In this document: piece by piece, positions 11,703 through 34,295 of the stretch
How the letters are laid out: each line of letters opens with the position of its first letter
How positions within the stretch are numbered: the first letter of the stretch is position 1
NCBI GenBank assembly: GCA_016931455.1
Contig: JAFGES010000084.1
Location: 1 to 34,402 of the forward strand
Direction: 5' to 3'
Source of the DNA: Desulfobacterales bacterium
Lineage (GTDB): Bacteria; Desulfobacterota; Desulfobacteria; Desulfobacterales; JAHDSC01
DNA: 34,402 bases
Notes under the pieces: generated by a model
Told to the model about the DNA's origin: nothing
Databases searched by the model: none
What the model saw: only the letters and a program-made list of their open reading frames with translations
Made by a program: the position numbers and the translations under genes

Positions 11703-11723
11703 GCAAAGAATTATTTTTTAAAA

Positions 11724-12739: not shown

Positions 12740-13000
12740 TTTGAAACCTCCTTTCCTTGAATAAGCCGGAAAACATGATGATCGATAACCTATTGAGTTT
12801 GAATGTATTTTGAAATTTTGAGTTAAATTTATACTGTTTTTGATTTTTAATTTAATTGAAAATACTTGGAAAATACATAAGGTTAACTATTTATTTTTTT
12901 ATAAAAAAGACTGTATTTTTCAGTTATCTAAAAAATGTAAACTTTCATTCATTTACAATGATTTAAAAAAAAGTGAAAATCGATTGAATAAGGAGATCCG
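12740..13000. other. AT-rich divergent intergenic region
   Basis: These 261 bases separate the split-barrel gene (leftward) from the Kdo kinase-like gene (rightward). They are strongly AT-rich and must hold two divergent promoters. Poly-A/T tracts around 12894-12935 would make the DNA curved. No gene is seen. Confidence 0.5.
12936..12957. promoter_or_regulatory. Inverted repeat TGTAAA-N10-TTTACA, candidate operator
   Basis: Six-base perfect arms separated by ten bases, a spacing of about two helical turns centre to centre, 43 bases upstream of the TTG start at 13001. AT-rich DNA makes such repeats by chance, so confidence is low. Confidence 0.3.
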
Positions 13001-15068: not shown

Positions 15069-15103
15069 AATTATTTATTTTCCTGATTCATAAAAATTCA
15101 AAT

Positions 15104-15649: not shown

Positions 15650-15823
15650 TGTTTCTCCTTAGCAGATCAATAGGGGTGCTGCAACAATGTTTTCGGTTCA
15701 GTCTTTTCGGGTTGCTAAATTGCTTGACACATTAAGCAGAGAAGAATAGGTTCAGTGCACTTATCACTTGGCGTGTAGCTTTTTTAATTTTTGTGAATCA
15801 TAAAATCAACAAGGAACATGAAT

Positions 15824-16486: not shown

Positions 16487-16505
16487 ATCGCTCTTTGAAT
16501 CTGTG

Positions 16506-16850
16506 CTAGAGCGTATCCTTATTCCATCCGAATTTGTTTCTTTCAATGCCTCTAAAATTGATATAGATTCGATCCGATGGAATACCGAGCTCCGACTCGA
16601 TAAAATTACATAGTGCATTTGAAAAAACAGCGCATTTATCTTCAGGGAGGCCAATGCTTTTCATTTCAACGTAAGCAAGGGGTTGGGTGCTGCCGCCGAA
16701 CATCATCGGAATACCTTGATTGATTGAAATCATCACCCAATTTTCAGATTTGTCTAGAAGGTTTGCCACAAATTCCGAGGTTTTTTTGAGAATCTCTTTT
16801 TTAAAAGCAATATTGAGTTCCTTGTTGGTTTCAATTTTTAAATACGGCAT
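16506..16850 (-). CDS. MIF/phenylpyruvate tautomerase-family protein
   Basis: A 114-aa member of the macrophage migration inhibitory factor family within the tautomerase superfamily, expected to form a trimer. Catalytic Pro2 follows the initiator Met (MPYLKIETN). The blocks NWVMISINQGIPMMFGGSTQPLAYVEMKSIG and RIYINFRGIER are typical. AAGGAGG sits just before ATG 16850. The natural substrate in bacteria is unknown. It starts 18 bases after the DnaJ-family gene, so it is probably cotranscribed with it. Confidence 0.88.
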   Translation of the reverse strand: MPYLKIETNKELNIAFKKEILKKTSEFVANLLDKSENWVMISINQGIPMMFGGSTQPLAYVEMKSIGLPEDKCAVFSNALCNFIESELGIPSDRIYINFRGIERNKFGWNKDTL

Positions 16851-16868
16851 TTTTACCTCCTTAACCCA

Positions 16869-17672
16869 TCACTTGCCCACAAGCCGTTTTGTAAAATTTT
16901 TGAACTTTTGAGATAGAGGGCGTTTGATGCGAACTTTCAATAATAAATCACCGGCTTCTCCGCCGCCTTTACCATTGTCGCCCATCCGCCGCAATCGGAT
17001 GGTCTGATTGCTTCTTATTCCTATCGGAATATTGACCAGCAACGCTTTGGAATTTTTACGGTGGGTATATTTTATTTTGCCGCCCAGCTGAGCCTGCTGA
17101 GGTGTAAGTGTGATCACATCGTACCAATCTTTGCCTTTTTGCGGCAGTTCTATCCCCAATATTTTTTCCATACCGTACTTGATTAGTTTACTCAGTTTTC
17201 CGGGCTGGGCCGTTTTTTGATTTTCATAAGCGCCTTTCCCTTTATGAGTAAAGACAAATCCTTTGCCAAAAAATCCCGGGCGCCGAAAATCAAAGGTTTG
17301 ATATTTGGGACCATAAAATTCTTTAAAAATTTCATCAAAGCTTCTGAATCCGAAAGCTTTGCCCATTTCCTCGAAAATTTGATTGACATCCGAGCCTCTG
17401 AATATATCTTGTTCGGAATAACTTCGTCTGAATTGACTGTAGGCGGAAGAACCATACTGTTGTCTTAAAACATCATATTCCCGTCTTTTGGTCGGATCGG
17501 AGATAACGGCATACGCTTCGTTAATTCCTTGCATCTTTGCAGCGGCAACCGGATTGTCCTTATTTTTGTCGGGGTGATACTCAAATGCTAATTTTCGGTA
17601 TGCATTCTTGATTTGCTTCGGGTCGGCATTTTTATCCACTCCTAAAATTTGATAATAATCTTTTTGTTCCAT
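16869..17672 (-). CDS. DnaJ-family cochaperone (CbpA-like, no zinc finger)
   Basis: A 267-aa protein with an N-terminal J domain ([16 protein letters not shown] motif in EYHPDKN, residues about 1-70). A Phe/Gly/Tyr-rich linker follows at about 75-165, then one DnaJ C-terminal substrate-binding-like domain at about 180-255 ([42 protein letters not shown]). It lacks the four CxxCxGxG repeats and is shorter than DnaJ or CbpA, which have two C-terminal domains. It should stimulate a DnaK-type Hsp70. It is not next to dnaK or grpE, so it is a specialised J protein. Confidence 0.85.
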
Positions 17673-17878
17673 GAACCTTTTCCCTTATATTAAATTATAA
17701 CCGCAGAGCGCCACCGTTTAAATCAGTAAATCCCTGCTATCTAAACAATTAAGTTTAACATAAATTGGTAGAGTTTGCCAAAGATTTATATTTGTTTCTT
17801 AATGTCTACAGACCGCAAATTATTAAAAAACACGGAGCGTATCGCAAATGGCGGATAAAAAGTAAAGTTTATTTTTAT
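17673..17878. other. Divergent intergenic region, DnaJ-family gene/lexA cassette
   Basis: About 200 AT-rich bases before the lexA control region. It must include the leftward promoter of the DnaJ-family gene, but I cannot place it. No small gene or RNA is apparent. Confidence 0.4.
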
Positions 17879-17906
17879 ACATTAACATTACATTGACATT
17901 TACATT
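17879..17906 (+). promoter_or_regulatory. Array of five ACATT repeats over the lexA-imuB-dnaE2 promoter
   Basis: ACATT occurs at 17879, 17885, 17890, 17896 and 17902, a 5-6 base period. Copies 1, 3 and 5 are 11 and 12 bases apart, about one helical turn. The array covers the -35 box and is a good candidate for the LexA operator of this cassette. It is not the E. coli (CTGT-N8-ACAG) or Gram-positive (GAAC-N4-GTTC) box. Confidence 0.4.
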
Positions 17907-17921
17907 TATGCACGTTATAGT
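17893..17921 (+). promoter_or_regulatory. Near-consensus sigma-70 promoter of lexA-imuB-dnaE2
   Basis: TTGACA (17893-17898) and TATAGT (17916-17921) are separated by exactly 17 bases. Transcription should begin near 17928, about 34 bases before the lexA ATG. A near-consensus promoter suits a gene set that must be held off by a repressor. Confidence 0.75.
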
Positions 17922-17934
17922 GATATTGTTTAAC
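17914..17934. promoter_or_regulatory. Imperfect inverted repeat GTTA...TAAC over the -10 box
   Basis: GTTATA and TGTTTAAC form arms (GTTA.A / T.TAAC) around the -10 element and start site. A second operator candidate for the adjacent repressor; arms are short, so chance is possible. Confidence 0.25.
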
Positions 17935-17961
17935 AGGGCTGAATCTAAACGGGAGGCTTTC

Positions 17962-18600
17962 ATGCGAGCGCAACTCACGCCGAAGCAACAGAGTTTTTTA
18001 GACTATCTTCACCGTCAAATTATGCATGCCGGCAAATCTCCCAGCTTGCGTCGAGCAGCACTGGATTTGGGTGTCAGCCATGCGGCGGTTGCTCAGATTA
18101 TAAAGGTGCTGGAAGAAAAAGGCTGCGTGAAAAGAGATGGCCGCTATAGTCGCCGGATTTATCTTTTGAATCGTATGGCTGAAGCCTCTGCTGTGCAGCG
18201 GTGGCGTGAAATTCCGGTTATCGGGCGTGTGACGGCGGGACTGCCCCTGTATGCGCAGCAGGAATGGGACGGAAGCATAGTCCTCGATGCTGCCGTCTAT
18301 CGCGGGCGGAACCTCTTTGCGCTTCGCATTAAAGGCGATTCCATGATCGGGGCCGGGATTTTAAACGGTGATCTGGCTATCTGCGAACCCCGTCAATATG
18401 CCCAAAACGGTGAGATTGTCGTGGCGCTCATCAATGGTGAAGATGCGACCGTCAAGCGGTTTTTTTTGCATCACGACCATATTGAACTTCGTCCGGAAAA
18501 TTCGGACTATGAATCCATGCACTATCAATTCGGTGAAGTCCTGATTCAGGGTAAGGTCATCGGTATTCAGCGCGGGCCGGAGATTATGGAGAAGATTTAA
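17962..18600 (+). CDS. LexA-family SOS repressor with self-cleavage domain
   Basis: A 212-aa repressor. The N-terminal winged helix (LTPKQQSFLDYL; SPSLRRAALDLGVSHAAVAQII) is followed by an S24 latent protease domain. The cleavage site is A92-G93 (VTAGLP), with nucleophile S127 (KGDSMIG) and general base K165 (DATVKRF); spacing matches E. coli LexA. RecA-stimulated self-cleavage should relieve repression. The recognition helix differs from canonical LexA, so its operator is probably different. ATG 17962 has GGGAGG at the right distance; starts at 17893 or 17908 would fall inside the promoter. It leads the cassette with imuB and dnaE2, as LexA2-type proteins do, and may be a second LexA in this genome. 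Confidence 0.88.
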   Translation: MRAQLTPKQQSFLDYLHRQIMHAGKSPSLRRAALDLGVSHAAVAQIIKVLEEKGCVKRDGRYSRRIYLLNRMAEASAVQRWREIPVIGRVTAGLPLYAQQEWDGSIVLDAAVYRGRNLFALRIKGDSMIGAGILNGDLAICEPRQYAQNGEIVVALINGEDATVKRFFLHHDHIELRPENSDYESMHYQFGEVLIQGKVIGIQRGPEIMEKI

Positions 18601-18614
18601 TCGGAAGGTGAAGC

Positions 18615-19787
18615 GTGGAACGTACGATTATCCATTTAAACGTGGCTGATTTTGCCGTTGCCGTGGAGCGGGAGGTGGATTGCCGACTGAAAAACCGGCC
18701 GGTGATTATTGCGCCGGAAGGTGCGGTACGCTCTCGGGTGTATGACATGAGCCAGGAGGCCTATGTGGCCGGGGTCCGTAAAGGCATGTCTTTGCGTCGG
18801 GCTACTCGATTGTGCGGCAGTGCTGAAATTTTGTCGCCTCATTGCGACCGCTATGAACGGGCCATGAAATCTCTGCTCAAACGGGCACTGCCGTACTCTC
18901 CCTTAATTGAAATGGATGATTGCCGGGGGCATTTGTTTATCGATGCCACCGGCACCCACCAACTCTTCGGCCCGGCCATGGATGTGGCCCGGCGATTGCG
19001 CCGGGAGATTAAAAGGGATCTCGGCTTTGATCCGATTTGGTCCGTAGCGTCCAACAAACTGGTTGCCAAGGTCGCTACACGTCTTGTAAAGCCTGTGGGT
19101 GAATACCTTGTGGCAGCCGGTGAAGAAGAAGCGGTTTTGGCTCCGCTGCCGGTTTGCCTGATTCCCGGTATCGAGCACGGCGATCTGCTCAGGCTGCAGG
19201 AATTCAATCTGACGCGGGTGTTTGAGGTGGTGACGCTGAGCTTGGAACAGCTGCAGATGATTTTTGGAACGTGTGCTCGGTTTATTTATGAATCGGTACG
19301 CGGGATCGATTCATCCCCCGTTGAGCCGGTGGGGCGGAAACCCCCGGTGGTCAGCGTTGACTTCGAATTCGGCGACGGCACCAACCAACCTTCCAACCTT
19401 GAAAGCGCTCTCTATAGTTTAGTTGAACAAGTCGGCAGTCAGCTTCGCAAACGCCGATCGGCTGCTCGTCGCCTTCGAATCCTGATCGACTATTCCGACG
19501 GCATGCGATGCGGCCGACAGACGATGATCAGACCGGCAACGGCTGATGACCCGACCCTTTTTGAGTGGGCCCGATCCTTGTTTTTGCGGACTTGGACTCG
19601 ACGGGTACGCGTAAGACATATACGTCTGATTGGTGATCAATTGGTATTTCCGCCGACCCAACTGGAGCTTTTTGCCGTTGACCGAAAGAAAACGCAAAAA
19701 CAGGTGCAATTGGCGGCTGCCATGGACTGTATTCGCGTACGTTTCGGTCCGCAAGCCATCGGCGTCGGTCGGCCGCCGGCAATCTGA
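18615..19787 (+). CDS. imuB: ImuB-like, catalytically inactive Y-family DNA polymerase homologue
   Basis: A 390-aa Y-family fold protein. The first metal ligand of Pol IV (HxD) is Asn here (IIHLNVADF, N9). The SIDEAFLD motif reads CRGHLFID, with G105-H106 in place of the catalytic Asp-Glu. Both changes argue against polymerase activity, as expected for ImuB. A beta-clamp-binding pentapeptide QLELF lies at 349-353 near the C-terminus. It should bring DnaE2 to the clamp at lesions. It sits 14 bases after lexA and 21 bases before dnaE2, in one operon. An imuA gene, its usual partner, is absent from the cassette. It is shorter than many ImuB proteins (about 500 aa). A metal-shifted active Pol IV cannot be fully excluded. 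Confidence 0.82.
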   Translation: MERTIIHLNVADFAVAVEREVDCRLKNRPVIIAPEGAVRSRVYDMSQEAYVAGVRKGMSLRRATRLCGSAEILSPHCDRYERAMKSLLKRALPYSPLIEMDDCRGHLFIDATGTHQLFGPAMDVARRLRREIKRDLGFDPIWSVASNKLVAKVATRLVKPVGEYLVAAGEEEAVLAPLPVCLIPGIEHGDLLRLQEFNLTRVFEVVTLSLEQLQMIFGTCARFIYESVRGIDSSPVEPVGRKPPVVSVDFEFGDGTNQPSNLESALYSLVEQVGSQLRKRRSAARRLRILIDYSDGMRCGRQTMIRPATADDPTLFEWARSLFLRTWTRRVRVRHIRLIGDQLVFPPTQLELFAVDRKKTQKQVQLAAAMDCIRVRFGPQAIGVGRPPAI

Positions 19788-19808
19788 ACTGAAAACGGAT
19801 AAGCCGCC

Positions 19809-22800
19809 ATGATTCCCTTAACGGTTCGTTCGCATTATTCTTTGATGTGGGGTACGGACTCCGTTAAACAAATTTGTCGTATTGCCAAACAACTGGGTTA
19901 TAAGCGTTTAGCACTGACCGACACGGACAATGTTTACGGACTGTGGCCCTTTTTGGCCGCCTGCCGGTGTGAAGAAATTACCCCCATTGTGGGGGCGGAG
20001 GTTACCGATCCAAGGCACAACCGACGGGCGGTCTGTTTGGTGGAAAATGAAACCGGTTATCACAACCTTTGCCGTCTGCTCACACGCCGTCACCTGGACG
20101 AGGCGTTTGATCTGGAAGGGGCGGTTGCAGCGCATGCCGAGGGGTTGACCGTTCTGACCGGCAGTGTTGATCTGCTTTTCTCATGGCACCGTGCCGGTGT
20201 CCAAGTTGCAGCCGCCATGCCGCGCAGGCCTTTGCCTGCCGGCCATCGACTGCGGCAAACCGCCAAACGCCTCGGTGCGCCTTTGGTTGCCACGCCGGGT
20301 AATTTCTTTTTAGAACCCAAAGATATAGGCCTTCATCGGCTGTTGCGGGCAATTGACGGCAATACCACCGTCGAGCGTCTTGATCCCGGAAGTGTTGCTC
20401 CCCCGGACGCATGGTTGGCTGCTTCCGACGAATATACCCGCCGGTTTGCTGTTTGTCCTGAAGCTATGGATTGCACGTATGCGCTTGCTGATCGTTTGCG
20501 CTTTACCGGTCCGAAATTCGGGGTGGTCATGCCGCCATGGGGAAAACGCAAGAACCCCGGCATTGAGGACGCGTACCGATGTTTGCGTGAAGCGGCTTAT
20601 GCAGGTGCTCACAAGCGTTACGGTGGCGAGTTGTCCGAGCCGGTGGTCGAGCGGCTCGAACACGAACTGCAGCAAATTCGAGCCAAACAATTTTGTGCCT
20701 ATTTTCTGATCGTTCGCGATATTGTCAGCCGCAGCCCGCGAACCTGCGGACGCGGTTCGGGAGCAGCTTCCTTGGTCGCGTATTGTTTAGGCATCACCAA
20801 TGTGTGTCCGCTCAAACACAATCTCTATTTTGAGCGCTTTTTAAATCCGGGCCGTACGGACCCGCCGGACATTGATGTTGATTTTGCCTGGGACGAGCGT
20901 GACGATGTGCTTAATGCCGTCCTGACACAATACCGGGGACATGCGGCAATGGTTTCCAACCACGTGCTTTTCCAGCCCCGCATGGCCGTTCGCGAAGTCG
21001 CCAAGGTTTACGGATTGACTGCCGCTGAGATCGGCAAGGTCGTCAAACGTCTGCCGTGGTATTGGCGCAGCCGTGATTTAGATACCGATCTTTTGACCCG
21101 TCTAAAAAATCGACCTGAAACCAAGGCCCTTGATTTTCCTTCACCCTGGCCGGAAATTTTGCGGTGGGCCCAACGGATCATCGGTATTCCGCGTTATCTG
21201 TCGGTCCATCCCGGGGGGGTGGTGATCACGCCCGGTCCCATTGATACCTATGTCCCGATTGAGCGGGCCGCCAAGGGAGTGCCGATTATCCAATGGGAGA
21301 AAGACGGCGCCGAGGAAGCCGGCCTGGTCAAGATCGATTTGCTGGGCAATCGAAGTTTGGGGGTGATACGGGATGCCGTGGCCAATGTTCATGCCAACGG
21401 CATTGTTTTCGATGAAACGCACTGGAAACCTGAAGATGATTTTGTTACGCAGGAGGCCCTATCCCAGGGCGACACCATGGGCTGTTTTTATATCGAAAGT
21501 CCGGCTATGCGGCTTTTGCAGAAAAAATCCGGGGTCGGCGACTTCAATCATCTGGTCATTCACAGCAGCATCATCCGCCCGGCAGCCAATGATTTCATCC
21601 GAGAGTACATCCGCCGCCTGCACGGCGGCTGTTGGGAACCGATTCATCCCCTTTTGACCGATGTGTTGACAGAAACCTTCGGCATCATGGTATACCAAGA
21701 GGATGTATCCAGGGCGGCCGTATCGGTCGGCGGTTTTACCCATGCCGAGGCCGATGGCCTGCGCAAGATTTTGTCCAAGAAAGACCGTCGTCAGCAGTTA
21801 CGTGATTTTTACGCCCGTTTTGTCTCCGGGGCAAAATCTCGGGGGGTATCGGCCGAACAGATCGAAGAGATTTGGAACATGATGATGAGTTTTGACGGAT
21901 ACTCCTTTTGCAAACCCCACAGCGCATCCTATGCCCGGGTCTCATTTCAGGCAGCCTATCTAAAGGTGCATTACCCGGCTGAATTCATGGCGGCGGTCAT
22001 CAGCAACCAGGGCGGTTTTTACAGCACATTTGCCTACGTTTCCGAAGCCCGGCGTATGGGACTTGAGATCCAGCCGCCTGATGTCAATAAAAGTGATATT
22101 TGCTGGAAGGGGCAGGGTAGGGGCATGCGTGTGGGGCTGCTTTCCATCAAAGGGCTTACCGGGCAAACCCGCAAACGGATTATTTCTCAGCGCCACGCCA
22201 GGCCCTATGACAGTATGAGGGACTTTCTTACGCGCGTCCGTCCCAATGATGTTGAGGCGCGCGCACTGATCCATTGCGGGGCCTTAGACGGCATGATCGC
22301 TCATGGCAATCGAGCGGTGTTGATGTGGGAGCTGGCTTGCCGGCAAACATCCCGGTCAATCCAACCGGCGACGGACTTTCTCTTTGCCGCTACTCCTTCC
22401 GCTACCCTTCCGCCGCCTTTGCCGCCGGAAAATGAACGCGATCGTCTGCGGCGTGAATTTGCCGTGCTCGGTTTTTTGTGCGCCCGCCATCCTCTTGAGT
22501 TGTTTGCAGATACCTTGAAGAAAATGCGTATGATCAAGGCCGTGGATCTGCCGCGCTTTATCGGCAAACGGGTTTGCTTGGCGGCTTGGCTGATTACCGG
22601 TAAAGTGGTTTCCACCAAACACGGCGAATCAATGCAATTTCTGACGTTTGAAGATGAAACCGGAATTTTCGAAACGACCTTTTTCCCGCAGACTTACCGC
22701 CGCTTCTGCCATATGATGGATCGGCAGCATCCCTACCTGCTTGCCGGAAAAGTCGAACAGGACTGGGGCGCCGTCACATTGACGGTTGATCAAGTGACCT

Positions 22801-22886
22801 TGCCTTTGCCTGAAAAATATGCCATTAATACCGTGTTAAATGGCGCTAAAAAAGGACCTTCATGCAGGGTAATTCCTAATTTTTAA
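19809..22886 (+). CDS. dnaE2: Error-prone DNA polymerase III alpha subunit DnaE2
   Basis: A 1025-aa C-family polymerase of DnaE2 length (replicative DnaE is about 1160). A PHP-like domain comes first, then the polymerase core with GRGSGAASLVAYCLGIT and the catalytic PDIDVDF motif (D354, D356). VHPGGVVI and SFDGYSFCKPHSASYARVSFQAAYLK follow, then helix-hairpin-helix-like and OB-fold regions (FLTFEDETGIFETTFFP). Damage-inducible lesion bypass with ImuB is the established role. The PHP N-terminus reads VRSHYSLMWG, without the usual His pair, so PHP nuclease activity is doubtful. Third gene of the lexA cassette. A terminator is not evident before the next gene, which starts 20 bases on. Confidence 0.93.
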   Translation: MIPLTVRSHYSLMWGTDSVKQICRIAKQLGYKRLALTDTDNVYGLWPFLAACRCEEITPIVGAEVTDPRHNRRAVCLVENETGYHNLCRLLTRRHLDEAFDLEGAVAAHAEGLTVLTGSVDLLFSWHRAGVQVAAAMPRRPLPAGHRLRQTAKRLGAPLVATPGNFFLEPKDIGLHRLLRAIDGNTTVERLDPGSVAPPDAWLAASDEYTRRFAVCPEAMDCTYALADRLRFTGPKFGVVMPPWGKRKNPGIEDAYRCLREAAYAGAHKRYGGELSEPVVERLEHELQQIRAKQFCAYFLIVRDIVSRSPRTCGRGSGAASLVAYCLGITNVCPLKHNLYFERFLNPGRTDPPDIDVDFAWDERDDVLNAVLTQYRGHAAMVSNHVLFQPRMAVREVAKVYGLTAAEIGKVVKRLPWYWRSRDLDTDLLTRLKNRPETKALDFPSPWPEILRWAQRIIGIPRYLSVHPGGVVITPGPIDTYVPIERAAKGVPIIQWEKDGAEEAGLVKIDLLGNRSLGVIRDAVANVHANGIVFDETHWKPEDDFVTQEALSQGDTMGCFYIESPAMRLLQKKSGVGDFNHLVIHSSIIRPAANDFIREYIRRLHGGCWEPIHPLLTDVLTETFGIMVYQEDVSRAAVSVGGFTHAEADGLRKILSKKDRRQQLRDFYARFVSGAKSRGVSAEQIEEIWNMMMSFDGYSFCKPHSASYARVSFQAAYLKVHYPAEFMAAVISNQGGFYSTFAYVSEARRMGLEIQPPDVNKSDICWKGQGRGMRVGLLSIKGLTGQTRKRIISQRHARPYDSMRDFLTRVRPNDVEARALIHCGALDGMIAHGNRAVLMWELACRQTSRSIQPATDFLFAATPSATLPPPLPPENERDRLRREFAVLGFLCARHPLELFADTLKKMRMIKAVDLPRFIGKRVCLAAWLITGKVVSTKHGESMQFLTFEDETGIFETTFFPQTYRRFCHMMDRQHPYLLAGKVEQDWGAVTLTVDQVTLPLPEKYAINTVLNGAKKGPSCRVIPNF

Positions 22887-22906
22887 TTGAACTGTGCAGG
22901 AAAACT

Positions 22907-24355
22907 ATGGACGAATCCAAACCCTTCTGGGAACAATCTGAATCTCGGCGTCTTGAGTTCAAGGAAGCATGGCCCAAAGGTGACCAGATCGCCCGTACGG
23001 TGGTTGCTTTTGCTAACGGGGCCGGTGGGAAAATAGTGTTCGGCGTTAAAAATAAGCCCAGAGAGATTATCGGTATAGCTGATGATGAACTCTTCGCATT
23101 GGAAGAACAGGTGGCAAATCATATTTTCGACCGCTGCACCCCGACAATCATTCCAGAGATCTATATCCAAAACGTGGAAGGTAACCCCCTGCTGGTTGTG
23201 GAGATATTTTCCGGTTTTCAAAAGCCCTATTTTCTTAAAAACAAAGGTAAACGCAAAGGAACATATGTAAGAATCGGCTCCGTAAACCGGCTTGCTTCGG
23301 AAGAAACACTGGTATCTCTGGAACGTGATAAGCGAAAAATATCGTATGACGAAGTGGTAGTATACGAATTTACCGCCGAACAATTGAACCTCAAGCGGTT
23401 TATAGCCGATTATACAGCCAGGTCCGGGAAACCCTTATCTGAAGAAAAACTCCAAAATATGGGATTGTTTGTTCCGGAGCGAGGGACTCTTTTCCCAACC
23501 CACGCAGCAATTCTGCTTTCCGAAGCACCTGCGAGAAAACGCTTTTTCCCATATGCTAAAATTGAATGCGCCCGATTCAAAGGAACAGAAACAAAAATTT
23601 TTCTCGATCAGGCTACGATCGCTGAGCCGGTTTATGCCGTCATTGAACCTTGCATGGCTTTTATCAAGAGAAACATCGCTTTGGGTTCACGAATTGGTGA
23701 AATATATCGGGAAGACCGTTGGGAATACCCTCTGGAAGCTGTTCGAGAGGCCGTCATCAATGCTGTTATACACCGGGATTACGCCATTCAGGGCAGTGAC
23801 ATCAAAGTGGCCATCTTCGATGATATGCTTGAAATTACAAGCCCCGGTCCTTTGCCGGACAACTTGCCGCCTGATGCCCTGGGAACAGGCCGGTCGGAAA
23901 TCAGGAACCGAATTCTCGCTCCCATTTTCAAGGAAATGAAATTGATTGAAGCCTGGGGGACTGGAATCCGGAAAATGCAGTCCGAAACTGCAAAATACCC
24001 GGAGATAGACCTCGTTCTGCAGGAAATCGGGCATGCTTTTCAGGTGCGGTTTATCAAAAAAGAAGCCCTATCGACTATTGATGAGACCCATGTTACACCC
24101 CAAGATGAACCTCATGTTACACCCCAAGTACTTCAATTGCTCTCTGTTTTGAAGGGTGCCGAGGATCGAGATACACTGCAACGTGCCCTGGGCTTAAAGG
24201 CCAGAAAGAATTTTAGACTTTTGTATCTGGTTCCGGCTTTAGACGCTGGTCTAATCGAGATGACGATCCCTGATAAACCCCGAAGCAGTAAGCAGAAATA
24301 CCGGTTGACGGAACAAGGTAAATTGATTCTAAAAAAATTACGATATTCAACTTAA
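22907..24355 (+). CDS. AlbA_2 (Schlafen-like) plus HATPase_c_4 putative regulator
   Basis: A 482-aa protein of the COG2865 type. The AlbA_2 domain (residues about 8-130) contains ESRRLEFKEAW, TVVAFANGAGGKIVFGVKN and the RIGS.NRLAS block. A GHKL ATPase-like region (about 265-365) follows with REAVINAVIHRDY, SPGPLP and WGTGIRKM. Two HVTPQ repeats (395-399, 403-407) lead into a C-terminal winged helix (about 410-480). The family is annotated as transcriptional regulators, and members are common in defence and mobile regions. AGGAA lies close to ATG 22907. It is only 20 bases after dnaE2, so it may be read through from that operon, but its composition and neighbours fit the downstream accessory region. 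Confidence 0.85.
   Translation: MDESKPFWEQSESRRLEFKEAWPKGDQIARTVVAFANGAGGKIVFGVKNKPREIIGIADDELFALEEQVANHIFDRCTPTIIPEIYIQNVEGNPLLVVEIFSGFQKPYFLKNKGKRKGTYVRIGSVNRLASEETLVSLERDKRKISYDEVVVYEFTAEQLNLKRFIADYTARSGKPLSEEKLQNMGLFVPERGTLFPTHAAILLSEAPARKRFFPYAKIECARFKGTETKIFLDQATIAEPVYAVIEPCMAFIKRNIALGSRIGEIYREDRWEYPLEAVREAVINAVIHRDYAIQGSDIKVAIFDDMLEITSPGPLPDNLPPDALGTGRSEIRNRILAPIFKEMKLIEAWGTGIRKMQSETAKYPEIDLVLQEIGHAFQVRFIKKEALSTIDETHVTPQDEPHVTPQVLQLLSVLKGAEDRDTLQRALGLKARKNFRLLYLVPALDAGLIEMTIPDKPRSSKQKYRLTEQGKLILKKLRYST
24089..24128 (+). repeat. Two 16-base direct repeats encoding HVTPQ linker units
   Basis: CATGTTACACCCCAAG occurs at 24089-24104 and 24113-24128, a 24-base period that keeps frame. Such VTPQ units vary in number among proteins of this family, so this is an expandable in-frame linker repeat. 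Confidence 0.8.
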
Positions 24356-24423
24356 GCACCGATCATTTTAAGACCATTTTACATTAATCAATTATCTGAA
24401 ATTTAGGGTGCGTTATAAACAAA
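24356..24423. promoter_or_regulatory. Short leader before the helicase operon
   Basis: Sixty-eight AT-rich bases between the AlbA_2 gene and the helicase. A GCACC (24356) and GGTGC (24407) pair could fold or bind a regulator, but the arms are only five bases. No clear -35/-10 pair is seen, and the helicase ribosome-binding site is weak. Confidence 0.25.
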
Positions 24424-27400
24424 ATGGTTAAACTCGAAGAGATTAAAAAAGATTCGGTATTAAATGGCATTGTGCTCGGACAATCCGTCAAGATTGCAAG
24501 CGTTGACGGTATCGGTGAAGATGCCATTTCAATTTTTTATAAGGATTCACATGGCCAGCTTGGTGAACGGATGCTGTTTCGTTCCGATGAAGCCAACCTT
24601 TCTCATGCCGAACTTGGCCGACCCTGGAGCTTTGATGGTAATGGCGCTGATTTCAAACTTGCAGCTGAAGCCCATCGTATCCATTTAGCACATCTTTTTG
24701 ATCCATTAATGGCGGTACATACATCAACGGTTGATCCCCTTCCACACCAGATTACCGCTGTTTATGATGCCATGCTGCCCAAACAACCTTTGCGATTCCT
24801 TTTGGCAGACGATCCTGGTGCTGGGAAAACCATCATGGCTGGGCTTTTCATACGCGAGTTGATGGTTCGAGGTGATCTGAAACGTTGCATGATCGTGGCA
24901 CCGGGTAATTTGGTCGAGCAGTGGCAGGATGAAATGGATCAAAAATTTGGGGTGTCCTTTGAAATTTTTAACCGCGAAATGGTTGAAGCAACAAGGTCTG
25001 GAAATCCTTTTGATGAGAAAGATTTATTAATCGCTCGTGTGGACCAGCTTGCCCGTGCCGAGGATTTACTTGAAAAATTGCAGGTTACGGACTGGGATTT
25101 GATCGTTGTCGATGAAGCCCACAAAATGTCGGCCTCCTGGTTTGGCAACAAACTCAACAAGACCAAACGTTATCAACTGGGTGAAGAGCTTGGTAAAATC
25201 ACCCGCCATTTATTGTTGATGACAGCTACGCCGCATAATGGCAAAGAAGAGGATTTTCAAACCTTCATGGCGCTTCTTGATTCAGACCGTTTCTATGGCA
25301 AATTTCGAGACGGCACCCATCAAGTTGACACTTCCGATCTCATGCGCCGCATGATCAAGGAAGATTTATTGAAATTCGATGCAACACCATTATTCCCTGA
25401 ACGCAGAGCCTATACGGTCAATTATAAACTCTCCGATTCTGAAGCTGCACTCTATGCCGCTGTCACCGAGTATGTACGCAATGAAATGAATCGTGCTGAA
25501 AATCTGGATAAAAAAAGAAAAGGCAACATTGGTTTTGCTCTCACTATTCTTCAGCGCCGCTTGGCCTCCTCCCCAGAGGCGATCTATCAATCGTTGCAAC
25601 GCAGACATAAAAAATTGCTGCGCATGCTGGAAGAAGTGAAGCTGAACAAGCGTGGTCTTTCTGAACTGGGAAACCTGAAATCCTCTAAATATCAAATGAC
25701 AGAAGAGGAATATGATGAATTTCTTGATGATGCCCCTGACGAAGAAGTGGAAGAGCTGGAAGACGAGGTCATTGATCAGGCCACCGCTGCCCAGACCATA
25801 GCAGAGCTTGAAGCGGAAATCGAAAGTCTTGAAAGGTTGGTGGCACAGGCCAGGGCAGTTCGGCAGGCTGAAGAGGACCGTAAATGGACTGAATTGTCAA
25901 AACTTCTGCAAGATAACCAGGAAATGTGGGATAAGCATGGCAATCGGCGCAAATTGATTCTGTTTACTGAACATAAAGACACACTCCGATATCTCTATGA
26001 TCGGATCACTGGATTGCTTGGTAAAGAAGATGGGGTGGTGATTATCCATGGCGGTATTAAAAGGGAAGAACGCCGCAAGGTGCAGGAACAATTCACCCAG
26101 GATAAAGATGTTTTGATTCTTATCGCCACTGACGCTGCCGGTGAAGGTATCAACCTTCAACGGGCTAATCTCATGGTCAATTATGATCTGCCATGGAATC
26201 CGAACCGTTTGGAGCAACGTTTTGGGCGTATCCATCGTATCGGCCAGACCGAGGTTTGTCATTTATGGAATCTGGTGGCCAGTGAAACCCGTGAAGGGGA
26301 CGTTTTTCAACGGTTATTTGATAAGCTTGAAAACGAGCGGGAAACATTGGGCGGTAAGGTGTTTGATATTCTGGGTCAGGTATTTGAAGAGTTTTCACTT
26401 AAAGAACTGCTCATGGAGGCGATCCGCTATGGTGACCGGGAAGATGTAAGGGCTAAGCTCTATCAAAAGGTTGAAAATGTCCTGGATACAGAACACCTAA
26501 AGAAAATTATCGAAAGAAACGCCTTGGCTGCTGACCATATGGATTCTGGTAAATTGTTCCGAATCAAAGCGGAAATGGAAAGAGCCAAAGCGTTAAAGCT
26601 TCAACCATTTTTTATACGCGCCTTTTTTGAGGAAGCTTTTACCAAACTGGGTGGTCAGTTGAAAAATCGTGAAAAAGGTCGGTTTGAAATCAGTTATGTT
26701 CCAGGATCAGTCCGTTCAAGGGATCGGGCAATCGGTTATGGCAAACCTGTGCTTCGCCGTTATGAACGGGTTTGTTTTGAAAAAGACAAAGTGCGCATGG
26801 ATGGAAAACCGATAGCAGCACTTATCGCACCAGGTCATCCCATTATGGATGCAACCATTGACCTGATTCAGGAACAATACCGTGATCTGTTAAAACAGGG
26901 TACAATCCTGATAGACCGTTCCGACGAAGGAACCGAACCTTATATACTCTATATCATAGATCATACCATCAGGGATGGCGGTAAGGACAAGAGTGGGCTG
27001 CAACGAATTATTTCCAGAAGAATGCAGTTTGTATTGATCGATGCCAACGGCAATATTTATCAGGGCGGGCATGCACCCTATCTTGATTATGAAGAGGTGA
27101 ACGCCGAAGAAATGACGCTTATCCAGGATGTTCTGGATCAACCCTGGTTAAAACAGAATATGGAAACCCCTGCTTTGGAACATGCTGTTAAAAAATTGGT
27201 GCCGGAACATTTTGAGGAAGTGAAATCAAGACGGGAAAGAATGGTTGACCTGACCCTTCAGGCGGTGCATGAGCGGTTGACCAAGGAGATCAACTATTGG
27301 AGCCATCGGTATGAAAAATTATTGTTGGAACATCAGGCAGGGAAACAACCCAACATGCAACCGGAGAATGCCCGCAGACGCGCCGAGGAATTGACCAGCA

Positions 27401-27927
27401 GACTCCAGGTCAGAACCAAGGAACTGGAAGAAAAACGTCATGTGGTATCCAGCACACCGGTGATTGTGGGTGGCGCTTTGATCATTCCACAAGAGTTACT
27501 GGATAAACGAAAAGGGATTGAAGTCCCGCTATGGGCATCTGACCCGGTTGCCAGGTCAAAGGTAGAACAAATGGCCATGCAAGCAGTCATGAATATTGAA
27601 AAACAGCTTGGGTTTGAACCGGAAGATGTCTCTCAGGCCAAATATGGCTGGGATGTTCAGTCAAAGGTTGATGGTGGGGAACTTCGTTTTATTGAGGTTA
27701 AAGGTCGTGCAAAAGGGGCACAAACGGTTACCGTTACCAAAAATGAGATTCTGGCGGGTCTGAATCAGCCGGATAAATATATTCTTGCCATTGTTTTGAT
27801 AGATGGTGAAGAAACAGAGGGGCCGTATTATTTACATCAGCCATTTGACCAGGAGCCGGGCTTTGGTGTTACCAGTGTTAATTATGAACTGAATGCATTA
27901 CTTGACAGGGCTGAACAGCCGAATTGA
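24424..27927 (+). CDS. SNF2/DEAH-type helicase with C-terminal DUF3883/PD-(D/E)xK-like domain
   Basis: A 1167-aa superfamily 2 ATPase. Motif I is DDPGAGKT (K135), motif II DEAH (230-233), motif III TATPH (267-271) and motif [13 protein letters not shown] (598-608). Between the two RecA lobes lies an acidic, coiled insertion (about 425-495). A long C-terminal region ends in a DUF3883-like domain with GWD (D1077) and FIEVKGR (E1091, K1093), the spacing of a PD-(D/E)xK nuclease site. It probably moves along duplex DNA and may cut it. DUF3883 helicases accompany the methyltransferase and ATPase encoded next, in defence islands. The methyltransferase start lies 13 bases after its stop. Confidence 0.88.
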
Positions 27928-27940
27928 ACAGGAAATAGGT

Positions 27941-30775
27941 ATGGAATATCCGAAAAAATTGATTGAGGTGGCTTTACCGCTTGATGATATTAATTATGCT
28001 GCTTCAAAAGAAAAATTAATACGTCATAATCATCCATCTACATTACATTTATGGTGGTCAAGAAAACCGCTTGCTGCAGCTCGAGCAATACTATTTGCAC
28101 AGCTTGTTAACGACCCGGGAGGTAAAAGAGGATATGGAAAATATAAAGGACAAACCAAAGAAGATGCTCAACGGGAAAGGGAACGACTTTTTCAGATAAT
28201 ACGTGAATTGGTAAAGTGGGAAAACACAGACAATGAAAAATTACTTGCGCGAGCTCGAGATGAAATTAAAAAGTCATGGGATAATAATTATGAAATAACT
28301 GGTACTATCAAAGAGCAAATGCCACCTTTTCTTGACCCATTTGCAGGGGGTGGCTCTATTCCATTTGAAGCTAGAAAACTTGGATTGGATGCATATGCAG
28401 CTGATCTAAATCCTGTTGCAGTTATGATCAATAAAGCAATGATTGAAATTCCTCCTAAATTTATTGGGAGAAAACCGATTGGTCCTCTTCCTCCTGGTGA
28501 GGGGAAACAGTCGAGTATTTTAGAACAGGATTGGCCTGGGACTAGAGGTTTGGCTGAAGATGTAAGGAGATACGGGTACTGGATACGCGAAGAGGCATTT
28601 AAAAAGATTGGACACCTTTACCCTAAAATTGAATTACCACAAGAATATGGCGGAGGCAAAGCAACCGTTATTGCATGGCTCTGGTCAAGAACAGTAAAGT
28701 GCCCAAATCCTGCTTGTAATTGTCAAATGCCTTTACTGTCTAAGCTAGATTTATCCACTAAGAAAGGGAATTGTTATAATTTAATTCCAATTATTTATGG
28801 TAACAAAATCAAATTTTCTATAGCAAGTGAAGAAGGGAAAAAACACCCCGGAACAATAAATAGAAATGGAGCATCTTGTCTTTGTTGCAATACATCAATT
28901 CCTTTTTCACATATTCGTTCTGAAGGGAAGAAAAAAAATTTACAGAAACAATTAATTGCTGTAGTTGCTGATGGCCTGAAAAAAAAGATATACCTCCCTG
29001 CAACTGATAGTATGGAAAAATTAGCATGTAGCGCCACACCGAAAAATGTACCAATAACTTCAATGCCAGAAAAAGCTCTCGGATTTAGGGTTCAAGAGTA
29101 TGGATATTTGAAGCATTGTGACCTATTTTCAGATCGTCAATTAGTTACTCTCACTACATTTTCTGATTTGGTTATAAAGGTGAGAGAAAAAATTATCTCT
29201 AATGTTAAAGTTAAAGGCAGGCAGTTTGTAGATGAAAAAATTGGGATTAATGGAAGTGATTTAGCAGCTTATGCTGATGCAGTTACTGTATATTTATCTT
29301 TCGTGATTGATAGATTAGCTGACTACTACAGTACATTTAATAGTTGGCAACCTGGAAATCAACAGTTAAGTCATACTTTTGCAAGACAAGCATTACCAAT
29401 GTCATGGGATTTTGCAGAAGCTAATCCATTTTCTGGTAAAGGTGGTAGTTTTGATAATTTGTTTGAATGGACCATTCAATCAATTCCTAATCTCTCATTA
29501 AGTAAAACAAAAGGTTATAGTATACTTGCTGATGTTCGTTCATTAAATAAAAGTAATAAATTTATTATTTCCACAGATCCTCCATATTATGACAATATAG
29601 GCTATTCTGATTTGTCTGATTTTTTTTATATCTGGATGCGCAGGACTATTAAAGAAGCATTCCCTAATGTGTTTTCTACTCTTCTTGTACCAAAACATCA
29701 AGAATTAGTTGCTACTCCTGAAAGACACGGAGGCAAAAAGGAAGCAGAGAATTTTTTTTTGGAAGGTATGTCCAAAGCATTGATTAGCATTAGGGAAGCT
29801 CAACATCCAATTTACCCTCTTACGATTTATTATGCTTTTAAACAAACGGAAAATAATAAAGATGGTACTTCTTCAATGGGCTGGGAAAGCATGCTTGAAG
29901 CTATTATTAAAGCCAACTTTTTGATCACAGGAACATGGCCAATTCATACTGAAATGAAAAATAGAATAAGGAGTATAGGTTCGAACACTCTATCTTCTAG
30001 TGTTGTATTAGTTTGTCGAAAACGGCATAGTAACTCTGAAACAATCTCCCGTAAACAATTCCTCCGAGAATTAGATGAATCTCTCCCTGAATCTCTCGAA
30101 GACATGATCGGCGGCAAAGAAGGCGCATCCCCAATTGCCCCGGTTGATCTCGCTCAAGCTGCCATAGGTCCAGGCATGGCTGTATTTTCAAAATATACCG
30201 CTGTTCTTGAAGCAGACGGCTCCCCCATGACCGTTCACACTGCCTTGACCCTGATTAACAAAGCAATAGACGAATATTTTACCCATGCCGAAAGTGACAT
30301 GGGAGCAGACACCCGTTTCTGTGTAGACTGGTTCCAACAATATGGTTTCAAAGAAGGTCCATTTGGTGAAGCCGACGTACTGGCCCGAGCAAAAGGTACC
30401 ACAGTTGACGGCGTACAAAACGCCGGTGTCATCCAATCCGGCAAAGGCAAAGTCCGACTCCTGAAAATCAGCGAATATCCACCCGACTGGGACCCAACCA
30501 AAGATTTGCGCACGCCTGTATGGGAAGCTTGTCATTACATGGCCCGTGCTTTAAAAGAGAGTGAAACCACAGCCGGCACATTGCTTGCTAAAATGCCGGA
30601 AAAAGCCGAACCAATCCGTCAATTGGCATATCGGCTCTATACAGTCTGTGAACGAAAAGGCTGGGCTGAAGATGCCCGAAGCTATAATGAGCTTATCGCA
30701 AGTTGGCATGCCATTGTGGAAGCCAGTCATGCTGTTGGACATGTAAGAAAACAAATGGAACTTTTTGAGGATTGA
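27941..30775 (+). CDS. DUF1156-containing DNA methyltransferase (N6-adenine type expected)
   Basis: A 944-aa protein. The N-terminus [15 protein letters not shown]...[19 protein letters not shown] is the DUF1156 signature. AdoMet motif I is DPFAGGGS (132-139) and catalytic motif [13 protein letters not shown] (from D546), giving an alpha-like order. The large insertion between them carries cysteine clusters (C254, C259, C261; C313, C315, C316) that could form a zinc ribbon and target-recognition part. The C-terminal 240 residues are helical. Start at ATG 27941 is chosen over 27893, which overlaps the helicase. It should mark host DNA within the helicase-methyltransferase-ATPase system. The first 2.1 kb is much more AT-rich (samples of 23-37% GC) than the last 0.7 kb (50-55%). 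Confidence 0.87.
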
Positions 30776-30801
30776 TCATAAAAAAACAAAAGGATTGTCA
30801 T

Positions 30802-33630
30802 ATGAGTTTAAAACCCTGGCGCGAACTGATTACTCCACATCAAAATGTATTGGAAGGAACTTTTCAAGAGTCAGAATTTGCCGCAGACCTGAACAAAGTG
30901 GTTAACGGATCAGCTCCTCCTGAATACCAAGACCCATCGCTTTTTTTCGAACGTACCTTTATTACTGAAGGCATGAAACTGATGCTGAACAGTGTGGTCA
31001 AACGATTGACCGGCAAAGGTGGTGATCCGGTGGTACAATTGCAAACCGCCTTTGGTGGCGGGAAAACCCATGCCATGATGGCGGTCTATCATATTGCCAG
31101 AGGTGAAAAACCAGCATCCCAATTGCCCGGCATCCCGCCAATACTTGATCTTTTGAAAATCAGCGAACTTCCCCGAGCCCATGTAGCGGTTTTAGATGGC
31201 AATAGCCTCAGCCCTTCCCAACCCAGAAAAAGAGGAAGTATCACCGTTAATACCCTTTGGGGTGAAATGGCCTGGCAACTTGGTGGAGAAGAAGGGTATC
31301 GAATGTTGGAAAAAGCAGACCAGGAGGGTACTTCACCTGGAAAGGAAATAATAGCGGAGTTATTTAAACGCTTTTCACCATGTATTGTGCTGATGGATGA
31401 AACCGTGGCCTACATTCGACAGTTTGCCGAAGGAAAAGATTATGCAGGGGGTACGTTTGGCTCAAACATGGCTTTTTTACAAGCTTTGACTGAAGCCTCC
31501 GGTCATGTGCCAACGGCTATGGTGCTGGCATCTCTCCCGGAATCAGACCTTGAAGCCGGTGGTGAACGTGGAAAACATGCCCTGCGACAAATTGAACATC
31601 TGTTTCACCGATTAGAAGCCATATGGAAACCGGTCAGTTCTGAAGAAGGTTTTGAGATTGTCCGGCGCAGATTGTTTGCAACATTGTCAGACCGAGACAC
31701 ACGGGATGCTGTGTGTAAAGCATTTGCAGAAATGTACATCGAAGGCGGCAATTATCCATCCGAAACCAGGGAATCGGTTTATTTACAGCGCATGAAAGCA
31801 GCCTATCCATTTCATCCCGAAATATTTGACCGTTTATATGAAGATTGGGCAACCTTGGAAAATTTTCAGCGTACCCGAGGTGTTCTGCGCTTGATGGCAA
31901 TGGTGGTGCATCGTCTCTGGGTGGATGGTAATCAGGATTATATGATCATGCCAGGTTCAATACCGATGTATGATAATCAGGTAAAAAGCGAATTGATCCG
32001 ATATCTTCCCACAGGATGGGAACCGGTTTTGGATCGTGATGTGGATGGTCCCAAGGCAATGACAACCCATGTGGATAATAGAGACACCCGTTTTGGAACC
32101 ATTCATGCTGCCAGAAGAGTGTCCCGCACCATTTTCCTGGGCAGTGCACCGACCACATCCGGTCAACGAATTCGCGGTATAAATGCAGAGCATATACGCC
32201 TTGGTTGCACCCAACCCGGTCAATCATCCGGCACATTTGACGATGCATTGCGCAGACTCAATGATCAGTTGTATTATCTTTATTCCGGTAATGACCGGTA
32301 CTGGTATGACACCCAAACCAATCTCCGCAGAGAGGCTGAAGACAGAATCACCAGATACAACCGGGAGGATCATCTCTTTCCGGAAATATCCAAAAGGATC
32401 AAAGCAACCCTTAAAGGCCAACCCTTTTCCGGTATCCATGTATTTACGCCGCACAGTGATATACCGGATGATACCAGTATCAGGCTGGTGGTTTTGCCAC
32501 CAACGGCATCTCATCTTTATAAAAAGAAAGAGACCATCGCAACCCAAACCGCATTGGAAATTATCCAAAAGCGGGGACAACAACCAAGGCTGAATCAGAA
32601 TCGGTTGATTTTCCTTTGCGCGGATGCTGATGCCACTGCCACTGTATATGACAATACCAAAAGGTATCTTGCCTGGAAATCCATCGTGGATGACAAGGAT
32701 GCCTTGAACCTTGATCAACACCGCATCAAAGAGGCAACCAAAAATCGTAATGATTATGATACCCGGCTAAATGGTGTGATCAGCCAGGCGTATAAATGGG
32801 TCATCGCACCCAACCAGGAACCCAATCCTAAAGGGGGTGTGGGCAAGCTTTATTGGGAAGAACATAAAGTGTCCTCCACCAATCCCAACATTATACCGGC
32901 TATTACCCATGTGCTTGCAGAAAATGAGATGCTGATCCCAAGGTGGTCGCCCATTCACCTGAATAATGAACTGCAAAAATGGTATTTGAAAGATGATCGA
33001 AAGGAAATCAGTTTAAAGACCTTATGGAATGATTTCTGTCGATACCCCTATATGCCAAGACTTGTTGATAGCAACGTGCTTCGTGATACGGTCGCTGCCG
33101 GTATTGAAAGTAAAGACTTTTTCGGTTATGCCTCGGGTAAGGATGGTGACAGATATATTGGACTGATCTATGGCAAAAGTGGTAGCGTTTTTGTTGATGA
33201 AAACAGTTTTATCGTTCAAAAAGAAGCGGCACAACGACAAATTGAGGCGGAAAGCAAACCACCAGAGCATCCCACCAACACAGGTGGTGCCGATTATGTT
33301 CAACCCACAGGTACAAACACGGGTACGCTTGGCGTTAAAGAATCAGGACCAGAACAACCTGGTGTTGGCCCAACAGTAGCACCACCCAAAAAGATGTTCA
33401 GACGATTTCACGGATCGGTTAAACTTGATCCCATTAAAGCATCGCTTGATTTTTCAACGATCACCCAGGAGGTTATTCAGCATTTTTCAAGCATCCTTGG
33501 GACTGAGGTGAACATCTCATTGGAGATCGAGGCGGTTTCAAATAATGGCTTTGAAGATTCAATCCGTCGCACTGTCCAAGAAAACAGTCGTACACTCGGT
33601 TTTAACCACGCTGAGTTTGAGGAAGATTGA
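30802..33630 (+). CDS. DUF499-family P-loop ATPase
   Basis: A 942-aa protein with the DUF499 start ([28 protein letters not shown]). A Walker A motif GGGKT (85-89, K88) sits in the conserved [14 protein letters not shown], with a Walker B IVLMDE at 195-200. The arginine-rich region [27 protein letters not shown] and a later P-loop-distal domain follow. A Pro/Gly/Thr-rich disordered linker (about 815-865) joins a small C-terminal domain. DUF499 proteins are large ATPases found with DUF1156 methyltransferases; their function is not proven here. AAAAGGA precedes ATG 30802, which is preferred over 30772 because the latter overlaps the methyltransferase stop. Confidence 0.87.
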
Positions 33631-33875
33631 GGGAGTTGATGTATAAACACGCTTTTGATTACAAGTCAGTCGGGTCAATCACAGCTAACACCTCGAAACT
33701 AAAAACTTCTAATTGAAAACTTGGACTTGGAATAGTAAAAATGACAATGCAAAACAACAGAGAGATTATTGTTTGCAAACATCGACTATCAAATACAATA
33801 TGGAGCACATTTTAGTATTGGGATCACTTACTAAAAAAATGGATAAAACCTTATTGGTTAGAAGGAACTAAAAAG
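33631..33875. other. Intergenic region downstream of the DUF499 gene
   Basis: These 245 bases hold no clear gene. A 24-codon frame from ATG 33741 has no ribosome-binding site. No strong terminator hairpin is seen, so read-through into the membrane protein gene remains possible. Confidence 0.4.
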
Positions 33876-34295
33876 ATGGATGCAATTCAGCAAGCGATCT
33901 CAAATGATCTTCAAACACAATGGCAAGATCATTTTCATATGCGTGATCAGACATGGAAAGTTCTCCAGTATTCAATCCTTTTCTTTCTCGGAGTTGTAGG
34001 TTTAGAGATCAAAGCTGTCGATAAAAGTATTTTAGTGCTGGCGTATATCGCCATATTAGTTACGAGCATATTTGGTGTGATCATTGCCGTCCACCATCGA
34101 CAACGACAGAAAGAAAAGTTTCGGATCATCATGATCTATGAAAAAGAACTGGGTTTGATTAAACTGATCAAACCGGTCCTTGATGATGCTCACAAACCGG
34201 TCGCCGGCCGTATAAATACATCTACATATATTGTTGTCATGCAGTTGGCACTTGCCCTTTTGGCATTCTTAATGCTCATGAAAAAAATTTTCTAA
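33876..34295 (+). CDS. Small three-helix membrane protein of unknown function
   Basis: A 139-aa protein with hydrophobic segments at about 28-46, 52-72 and 118-136. A basic, charged stretch (HHRQRQKEK, 73-81) and an amphipathic region lie between the second and third. I do not recognise the family. AAGGA lies nine bases before ATG 33876. It follows the DUF499 gene in the same direction. Small membrane proteins next to defence ATPases often act as effectors or signal to them, but no such link is shown here. Confidence 0.65.
   Translation: MDAIQQAISNDLQTQWQDHFHMRDQTWKVLQYSILFFLGVVGLEIKAVDKSILVLAYIAILVTSIFGVIIAVHHRQRQKEKFRIIMIYEKELGLIKLIKPVLDDAHKPVAGRINTSTYIVVMQLALALLAFLMLMKKIF

Follow-up and report, generated by a model that had tools for sequence, protein, structure and literature searches.

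Probable replacement of the catalytic and recognition core of the HmaB methyltransferase in an HmaABC operon of a Desulfobacterales bacterium

The HmaABC operon and the architecture of HmaB

The DNA analysed here (the window) comprises 34,402 nt of contig JAFGES010000084.1 of a Desulfobacterales bacterium (GCA_016931455.1), a draft assembly of 133 contigs with a stated completeness of about 97%. It carries a complete HmaABC operon, the hmaABC allele set referred to below as WIN, in which the HmaA, HmaB and HmaC genes are adjacent and each matches its PADLOC model over nearly its full length (Table 1). Pfam matches are SNF2-rel_dom, Helicase_C and a C-terminal NOV_C (residues 1047–1131) in HmaA, and DUF1156 and MethyltransfD12 in HmaB, which would be 960 aa long if translation began at 27893. 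The Swi2/Snf2 helicase, DUF1156 methyltransferase and DUF499 ATPase identified by Pfam make up the Type-1 BREX-related gene set, and the Hma system (PADLOC; named Hma in PMC8565338) and the Type-1 DUF499-centred BREX-related system (PMC12839542) correspond in WIN to the same row of genes. A standalone DUF3780 gene marks Type-2 systems (PMC12839542); DUF3780 had no match among the eight proteins scanned in 17893–34295, the window itself stopping at 34402. An extra C-terminal PD-(D/E)XK nuclease is found on the helicase in 79% of Type-1 taxa (PMC12839542). Judged by its sequence, the WIN locus is a DUF499-centred, BREX-related system, HmaABC.

The order of motif I, recognition insert and DPPY is present in a structural model of HmaB (m35132b61c353, mean pLDDT 84.7), the insert being flanked by strands 151–155 and 541–545. 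DPFAGGG is methyltransferase motif I and DPPY catalytic motif IV; DPPY presumably makes WIN HmaB an amino-methyltransferase, in contrast to the m5C label that HmaB carries in the literature. That label was given in PMC8565338, and the recognition insert was placed after core strand 2 in PMC12839542. Strands run from 243 to 344 in the model and cover a four-cysteine patch; the last core strand spans 686–694, the next helix 704–723, and helices 734–931 make up the C-terminal module. At a threshold of E 0.001, Foldseek matched no PDB structure to either HmaB model (a first, poorer one with mean pLDDT 70.2, and that with 84.7), nor did a profile search for HmaB among PDB sequences yield a match.

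Table 1. Features of the HmaABC operon in the window, with residues numbered in HmaB unless stated otherwise.
Feature	Coordinates	Strand	Basis
HmaA, SNF2-family helicase with NOV_C C-terminal domain; probably native part	24424..27927	+	PADLOC PDLC00659, 1907.6 bits
HmaB, DUF1156 DNA methyltransferase, 944 aa	27941..30775	+	PADLOC PDLC00661, 1351.7 bits
Probable exchanged core, residues 1 to ~692	27941..30016	+	GC3, triplet scan, synonymous-codon test
Motif I, DPFAGGG, residues 132–138	28334..28354	+	Columns invariant or nearly so in 76 aligned sequences
Recognition region ("TRD"), residues 201–540, between motifs I and IV	28541..29560	+	Lowest inter-allele identity, conflict with hmaA tree
Four-cysteine beta-rich stretch of the other HmaB clade's type, residues 241–335	28661..28945	+	Log-odds scan
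Catalytic motif IV, DPPY, residues 546–549	29576..29587	+	Invariant in 18/18 and 76/76 aligned sequences
3′ junction interval, in or beside helix 704–723	30016..30092	+	Triplet scan, nucleotide alignment, G+C step, model
Probably native C-terminal helical module, residues 717–944	30089..30772	+	Identity to L031 and synonymous excess (values in text)
HmaC, DUF499 AAA+ ATPase; probably native part	30772..33630	+	PADLOC PDLC00662, 1346.2 bits; Pfam DUF499

Elsewhere in the window, a TPR-CHAT protein gene lies near the start (69–2495), followed by lipid A/LPS-core type genes at 4742–9237 (an acyltransferase, two of the heptosyltransferase family and one of Kdo-transferase type). LexA, polymerase-IV-type (ImuB-like) and DnaE-type polymerase genes stand in series at 17893–22886, possibly an acquired mutagenesis cassette; the GC3 of the two polymerase genes (0.58) exceeds that of 98% of sampled genome ORFs.

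The diverged tract within hmaB

An earlier note on this DNA had proposed that hmaB breaks in composition near 30050, its catalytic and recognition part having been exchanged and its C-terminus kept. The five 60-base lines on which it relied, counted again, hold 19, 22, 15, 31 and 32 G+C (19, 22, 14, 30 and 33 in the note), and the step within one open frame (27893/27941–30775) stands: 300-base windows lie at 0.31–0.36 from about 28600 to 30100 and at 0.50 from 30100 to 30700. The helicase and DUF499 genes do resemble the 3′ part of hmaB, with a GC3 of 0.434 in hmaA, 0.419 in hmaC and 0.417 in HmaB residues 717–944. Residues 1–716 have a GC3 of 0.225, below which falls none of the 116 long ORFs in a 248,664-base sample of this genome. 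The low GC3 is present from the start codon (0.22 for residues 1–200), upstream of the lines quoted in the note. Among 15 long ORFs of the genome, GC3 of the first 75% minus that of the last 25% averages −0.009 (sd 0.026, minimum −0.065).

For comparison across the family, WIN was aligned with 52 of 79 loci in which HmaA, HmaB and HmaC each reach at least 93% of the WIN length (53 rows). Two loci were left out, L001, whose HmaB is identical to that of L031, and L003, which equals WIN; the single genome-contig scan, which yielded the loci, used short peptide patterns from the whole HmaB protein. Topology tests with 18 and 12 rows were drawn from the 53-row set, and a 39-row set combined 27 of the 53 with 12 rows from a further genome search. 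GC3 of the equivalent of residues 1–716 lies below the value averaged over hmaA, hmaC and C-terminus in 47 of the 52 homologues (mean difference over the 52 −0.095, sd 0.069), so that the G+C contrast alone is not diagnostic. The WIN dip of −0.199 ranks fifth of 53, four homologues dipping further, and L031, the nearest relative, is flat (+0.019).

The best full operons related to WIN are those of L031 and L036. WIN and L031 share 84% protein identity in HmaA, 82% in HmaC and 88% in HmaB residues 717–944, and 76%, 44% and 60% in HmaB residues 1–200, 201–540 and 541–716, respectively; between L031 and L036 the same six regions are 76%, 68%, 73%, 82%, 64% and 73% identical. Against every one of the 52 other rows, residues 201–540 of WIN reach 33–45% identity, and those of L031 average 48–51%. 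In 100-base blocks, WIN-L031 identity is 71–89% in hmaA and mostly 69–88% from 30100 to 33100, and drops to 42–67% in most blocks of 28000–30099 (exceptions are 83% at 28100 and 75% at 28400), a range over which L031 and L036 are 51–79% identical. In a triplet scan the tract spans 28276–30016, with a maximum descent of 153 that none of 20000 permutations matched (at most 33). Informative sites of the two kinds occur in near-equal numbers in 27941–28540 (78 and 87), so the 5′ edge can be placed only between the hmaA stop and 28276; the low GC3 suggests that it may lie at the start codon.

The divergence extends to silent sites. At codons whose amino acid is conserved, the excess of shared synonymous codons between WIN and L031 is 0.123 in hmaA, 0.146 in residues 717–944 and 0.101 in hmaC, and is absent from residues 201–716 (−0.008), a difference reached in 2 of 20000 permutations; residues 1–200 are intermediate (0.057, interval −0.015 to 0.128). 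L031 and L036 display no such contrast (17199 of 20000 permutations reach the difference). Thus, silent sites in the tract have diverged as well, which is not expected from in-place selection on amino acids. Only a single match to 28200–30090, and thus no second copy, was found in the WIN assembly, and the genome holds one HmaB match. A search for the donor in plasmids, viral contigs and whole genomes (sets of 297, 389, 63 and 42 genomes, some genomes occurring in more than one) gave no match above 51% identity to residues 201–716 or 241–700; the best core match within WIN's class came from L031's own genome (51%), and other sets reached at most 50%.

Part of the core carries the residues of another clade. 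Cysteines at 254, 259, 313 and 316 of HmaB form a pattern present in 18 of 53 rows. One side of the C-terminal tree comprises 21 rows, 17 of them with the pattern; the eighteenth is WIN, the sole four-cysteine row on its own, opposite side. In a leave-one-out log-odds scan (17 four-cysteine rows versus 31 own-side rows), residues 241–335 of WIN score +32.7, compared with a mean of 32.9 (minimum 12.1) for the 17 other-clade rows and −54.9 (maximum −30.0) for the 31 own-clade rows; L079, L085, L093 and L095, which were excluded from both reference groups, score −41.7 to −56.9. Eleven of the 17 rows of this second clade are Bacillota. Elsewhere WIN scores with its own clade (−105.8 for residues 1–240, −33.7 for 336–540, −48.0 for 541–716 and −204.1 for 717–944), so outside 241–335 the case for a foreign origin comes from composition, silent sites and distance. 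On these residue patterns hmaB is a nested mosaic: the 95-residue patch of the other clade's type would mean that the imported core was already mosaic, or that a second exchange took place.

Separate phylogenies, proposed earlier as a check, give a mixed outcome. Both hmaA and hmaC strongly favour WIN+L031 (p-AU <0.002 for both alternatives, 12 rows), and the C-terminus groups the pair with a support of 95 for residues 717–944 and 98/91 for 717–926, the alternatives for 717–944 having p-AU values of 0.058 and 0.098 (18 rows). For residues 201–716, WIN+L031 is rejected with 18 rows (p-AU 0.043 under LG, 0.037 under C20) and is not rejected with 39 rows (0.833) or 53 rows (0.389); in the 39-row test the tree holding WIN+L031 is 12 log units better than the free tree, and that holding WIN+L031+L036 is 24 log units better (p 0.973). 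With 18 rows, neither WIN as sister to L031+L036 (p-AU 0.0996 and 0.096 for residues 201–716) nor WIN+L031 for residues 201–540 alone (0.175) or 541–716 alone (0.113) is rejected. The three WIN/L031/L036 arrangements are indistinguishable for residues 1–200 (18 rows), whose tree still groups WIN with L031, L036 and L033. WIN is a long branch in residues 201–716 (1.42, versus 0.062 in 717–926) and shifts its place between trees. It fell beside a mostly Bacillota group in a quick 53-row tree and beside gammaproteobacterial and Desulfobacter rows in a careful 39-row tree; neither placement was used as evidence of a donor. An origin of most of the core near the L031/L036 line is thus neither proved nor excluded by the trees, as might be expected if the core belongs to the same broad clade and bears a patch of another.

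Family-wide variation, tandem hmaB genes and the explanations of the tract

Over the 53 operons, pair identities of hmaA and hmaC correlate at 0.97, and those of the HmaB C-terminus at 0.93 with hmaA and 0.92 with hmaC. Residues 201–540 correlate at 0.48 with hmaA and 0.54 with hmaC, values that are lowered by fast change alone and come from non-independent pairs. When supported splits are compared with supported splits of the hmaA tree, shared splits being counted over all splits, 18 of 22 conflict and 2 are shared for residues 201–540, 4 of 24 conflict and 23 are shared for residues 717–944, and 6 of 37 conflict and 29 are shared for full hmaC. Residues 1–200 (6 of 12 in conflict, 15 shared) and 541–716 (4 of 14, 14 shared) are intermediate or near the controls, random hmaC sets of 170–300 columns in which 1–5 of 18–30 splits conflict and 22–30 are shared. 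Throughout the family, then, the C-terminus varies in step with hmaA and hmaC, behaviour that a partner-binding module would show. Among 44 close pairs (hmaA and C-terminus at least 80% identical, hmaC at least 69%), the recognition region is at most 50% identical in 11 and at least 70% identical in 11. The 11 discordant pairs stem from few rows (the WIN–L031 pair, and rows L034, L042, L046, L054, L058, L059 and L062), and their mean identity is back near the concordant level from residue 721 onward; recognition regions are the most variable part of HmaB in the pairs profiled.

Some operons hold more than one hmaB. In L090 (Peptococcaceae bacterium 1109, 2681–17926) three full-length hmaB genes follow one another between hmaA and hmaC, and the genome gives three HmaB matches. 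Copies 1 and 2 are 43–83% identical in blocks upstream of residue ~691, identical in DNA in blocks from ~691 to ~760 and 92–100% identical beyond. The WIN junction interval (~692–717), which follows the last core strand, is close to this break. On contig 97 of genome G272, hmaC is preceded by two hmaB genes, of which the first is truncated at the end of the contig; they share 62% identity in residues 201–540 and 84% in 717–944. A second, diverged methyltransferase lies near hmaB in five more of the 79 loci (L070, L080, L086, L104 and L108); such enzymes match the C-terminal module poorly, and lengths of 738, 745 and 864 aa occur among L070, L080 and L086. Three of 72 genomes in the class of genome G757 have an HmaB match at E ≤ 1e-150, G757 being the sole one with three matches, and nine of 63 in the class of G272 have a match, several with 3–5, mostly on separate contigs. 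Tandem full-length arrays are thus rare within the genomes searched.

We consider it very probable that hmaB is recombinant, a diverged core having been brought in while the C-terminal module, hmaA and hmaC remained native. The exchange of the core and the retention of the C-terminus, as proposed in the earlier note, are backed by the triplet scan, the synonymous-codon test, the clade-diagnostic residues and the regional identities; the break near 30050 is refined to a 3′ boundary at 30016–30092, and the exchange, itself well supported, is more intricate than first proposed, being nested with a patch of the other clade's type. A diverged, A+T-rich hmaB allele would have replaced the core with its recognition insert, beginning at or shortly downstream of the start codon and ending at about residues 692–716, with the C-terminal helical module, hmaA and hmaC staying native and residues ~241–335 having become, by either of the routes given above, of the second HmaB clade's type. 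The mechanism may have been homologous recombination between hmaB alleles or tandem copies at DNA encoding conserved motifs, one such stretch lying near residues 682–696, also at the L090 tandem-copy break. In functional terms, the core and recognition insert would determine the DNA sequence to be methylated and so protected, and the C-terminal module would dock to HmaA/HmaC, so that a single exchange of the core could redirect the entire system. Since the recognition insert lies within the exchanged part, the recognised DNA sequence would be expected to change with it.

Fast in-place evolution of the core under phage selection, joined to drift in composition, would require no exchange. The variability of recognition regions in the profiled pairs accords with it, as do the own-clade scores of most of the core and the failure to reject WIN+L031 for residues 201–716 with 39 and 53 rows, or for 201–540 or 541–716 alone with 18. 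We nevertheless judge it unlikely, since synonymous similarity has been lost along with protein identity, the GC3 of the core lies under that of every sampled ORF of the genome, residues 241–335 bear the other clade's residues including the cysteines, and the WIN branch lengthens so sharply between the C-terminus and residues 201–716. It is very improbable that HmaB recognition regions are simply A+T-rich as a rule, leaving the break uninformative about history. The earlier note had recognised that the same contrast in all homologues would point to such domain-specific constraint, and the 47 dipping homologues, four homologues being deeper than WIN, go some way towards it; L031, however, lacks a dip, that of WIN is roughly double the average and extends over residues 1–200 too, and neither the step in identity nor the triplet scan nor the patch of clade-diagnostic residues can be accounted for by composition. 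Domain-specific constraint alone is therefore insufficient, and repeated exchange may even lie behind the dip seen across the family.

Recombination could also have run the other way, with L031 (or the L031/L036 line) receiving a new core and WIN keeping the ancestral one, as the triplet scan is symmetrical with respect to which allele changed. This polarity is most unlikely given that the anomalous composition is that of WIN relative to its own genome, with L031 flat, that residues 201–540 of WIN are more distant from all 52 other rows than the L031 average, and that the other clade's patch sits in WIN. Nor do we give much credence to an assembly chimera of two strains or species, which the 133 contigs of a draft might invite and which we hold to be exceedingly improbable: the frame is open across both junctions with the catalytic motifs intact, the 3′ junction is close to the L090 tandem-copy break, and the assembly has no second copy of the tract. 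Beyond the recombinant origin of WIN hmaB, a broader proposal, to which we assign an even chance, is that HmaB is an exchangeable specificity cartridge. Alleles and lineages would trade cores at a fixed junction (~690–716), joining them to a conserved C-terminal module that docks to one HmaA/HmaC pair; the recognition region would itself consist of smaller tradable parts such as the four-cysteine patch, and operons like L090 would run several specificities with one helicase/ATPase, their C-terminal modules being kept alike by conversion.

Relation to known systems and minor observations

Type I and Type III systems already exemplify the principle of exchange, and defence enzymes that trade parts in this way alter the DNA sequence recognised. 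As in Type I HsdS (PMC7394358, PMC3077401), variable recognition parts are set on constant parts with one partner set and alternative genes per locus; unlike HsdS, HmaB joins catalysis and recognition in one chain, and no second copy of the tract was found in the WIN genome. A phase-variable specificity locus has silent cassettes or second copies, whereas the WIN assembly, about 97% complete, gave the tract once. Recognition domains of Type III Mod move between genes by recombination at conserved-motif DNA, across species borders (PMC3983042); the WIN exchange differs in that a whole core with its catalytic motifs would have moved while the C-terminal module stayed fixed, and in that the system is a BREX-related one of several subunits. 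BREX PglX/BrxX is similar in being a methyltransferase that also sets the motif recognised by a phage-defence complex (PMC11341690), but the recognition domain of PglX, called gamma-class, is C-terminal (PMC11341690), whereas that of HmaB is nested between motifs I and IV. WIN hmaB has the hallmark of recognition-domain exchange, a variable part apparently recombined onto a constant part, the topology tests of residues 201–716 alone being divided.

Neither core exchange in HmaB nor tandem hmaB genes are described in the accessible portions of PMC8565338 and PMC12839542, and the terms "recombination", "mosaic" and "domain swap" have 0 occurrences in the main text of the latter. Exchange in the Hma family, a recurrent junction and tandem hmaB genes were not found in the main texts of the open-licence PMC papers searched, and the papers found do not address how BREX-related systems acquire new target sequences. 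If the exchange is true, full-length HmaB trees mix two histories, and recognition type could not be inferred from hmaA or hmaC. The recurrent junction, the constant module and the natural chimeras (WIN and the L090 tandem genes) offer ready-made test constructs.

Some features of the operons stand apart from hmaB. A patch of WIN hmaC at 33200–33400 is 64% and 43% identical to L031, in a gene mostly at 69–84%, and may be the hypervariable C-terminal RRM of PMC12839542. An AlbA_2/HATPase_c_4/Fic-like C gene lies immediately 5′ of hmaA (22907–24355), and an AlbA_2 + HATPase_c_4 gene occurs within the Hma operon of L086 (11908–13344). Gaps of more than 500 bases separate hmaA from hmaB in 30 of 66 operons (WIN included) and hmaB from hmaC in 35 of 66. 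The WIN gaps hold no defence-gene insert; the gap contents sampled match other defence genes, namely PtuA/PtuB of Septu (L046), PtuA (L056, L073), AbiLi/AbiLii or RloB-like (L036), HEC-02 (L032, L041) and Ppl (L044).
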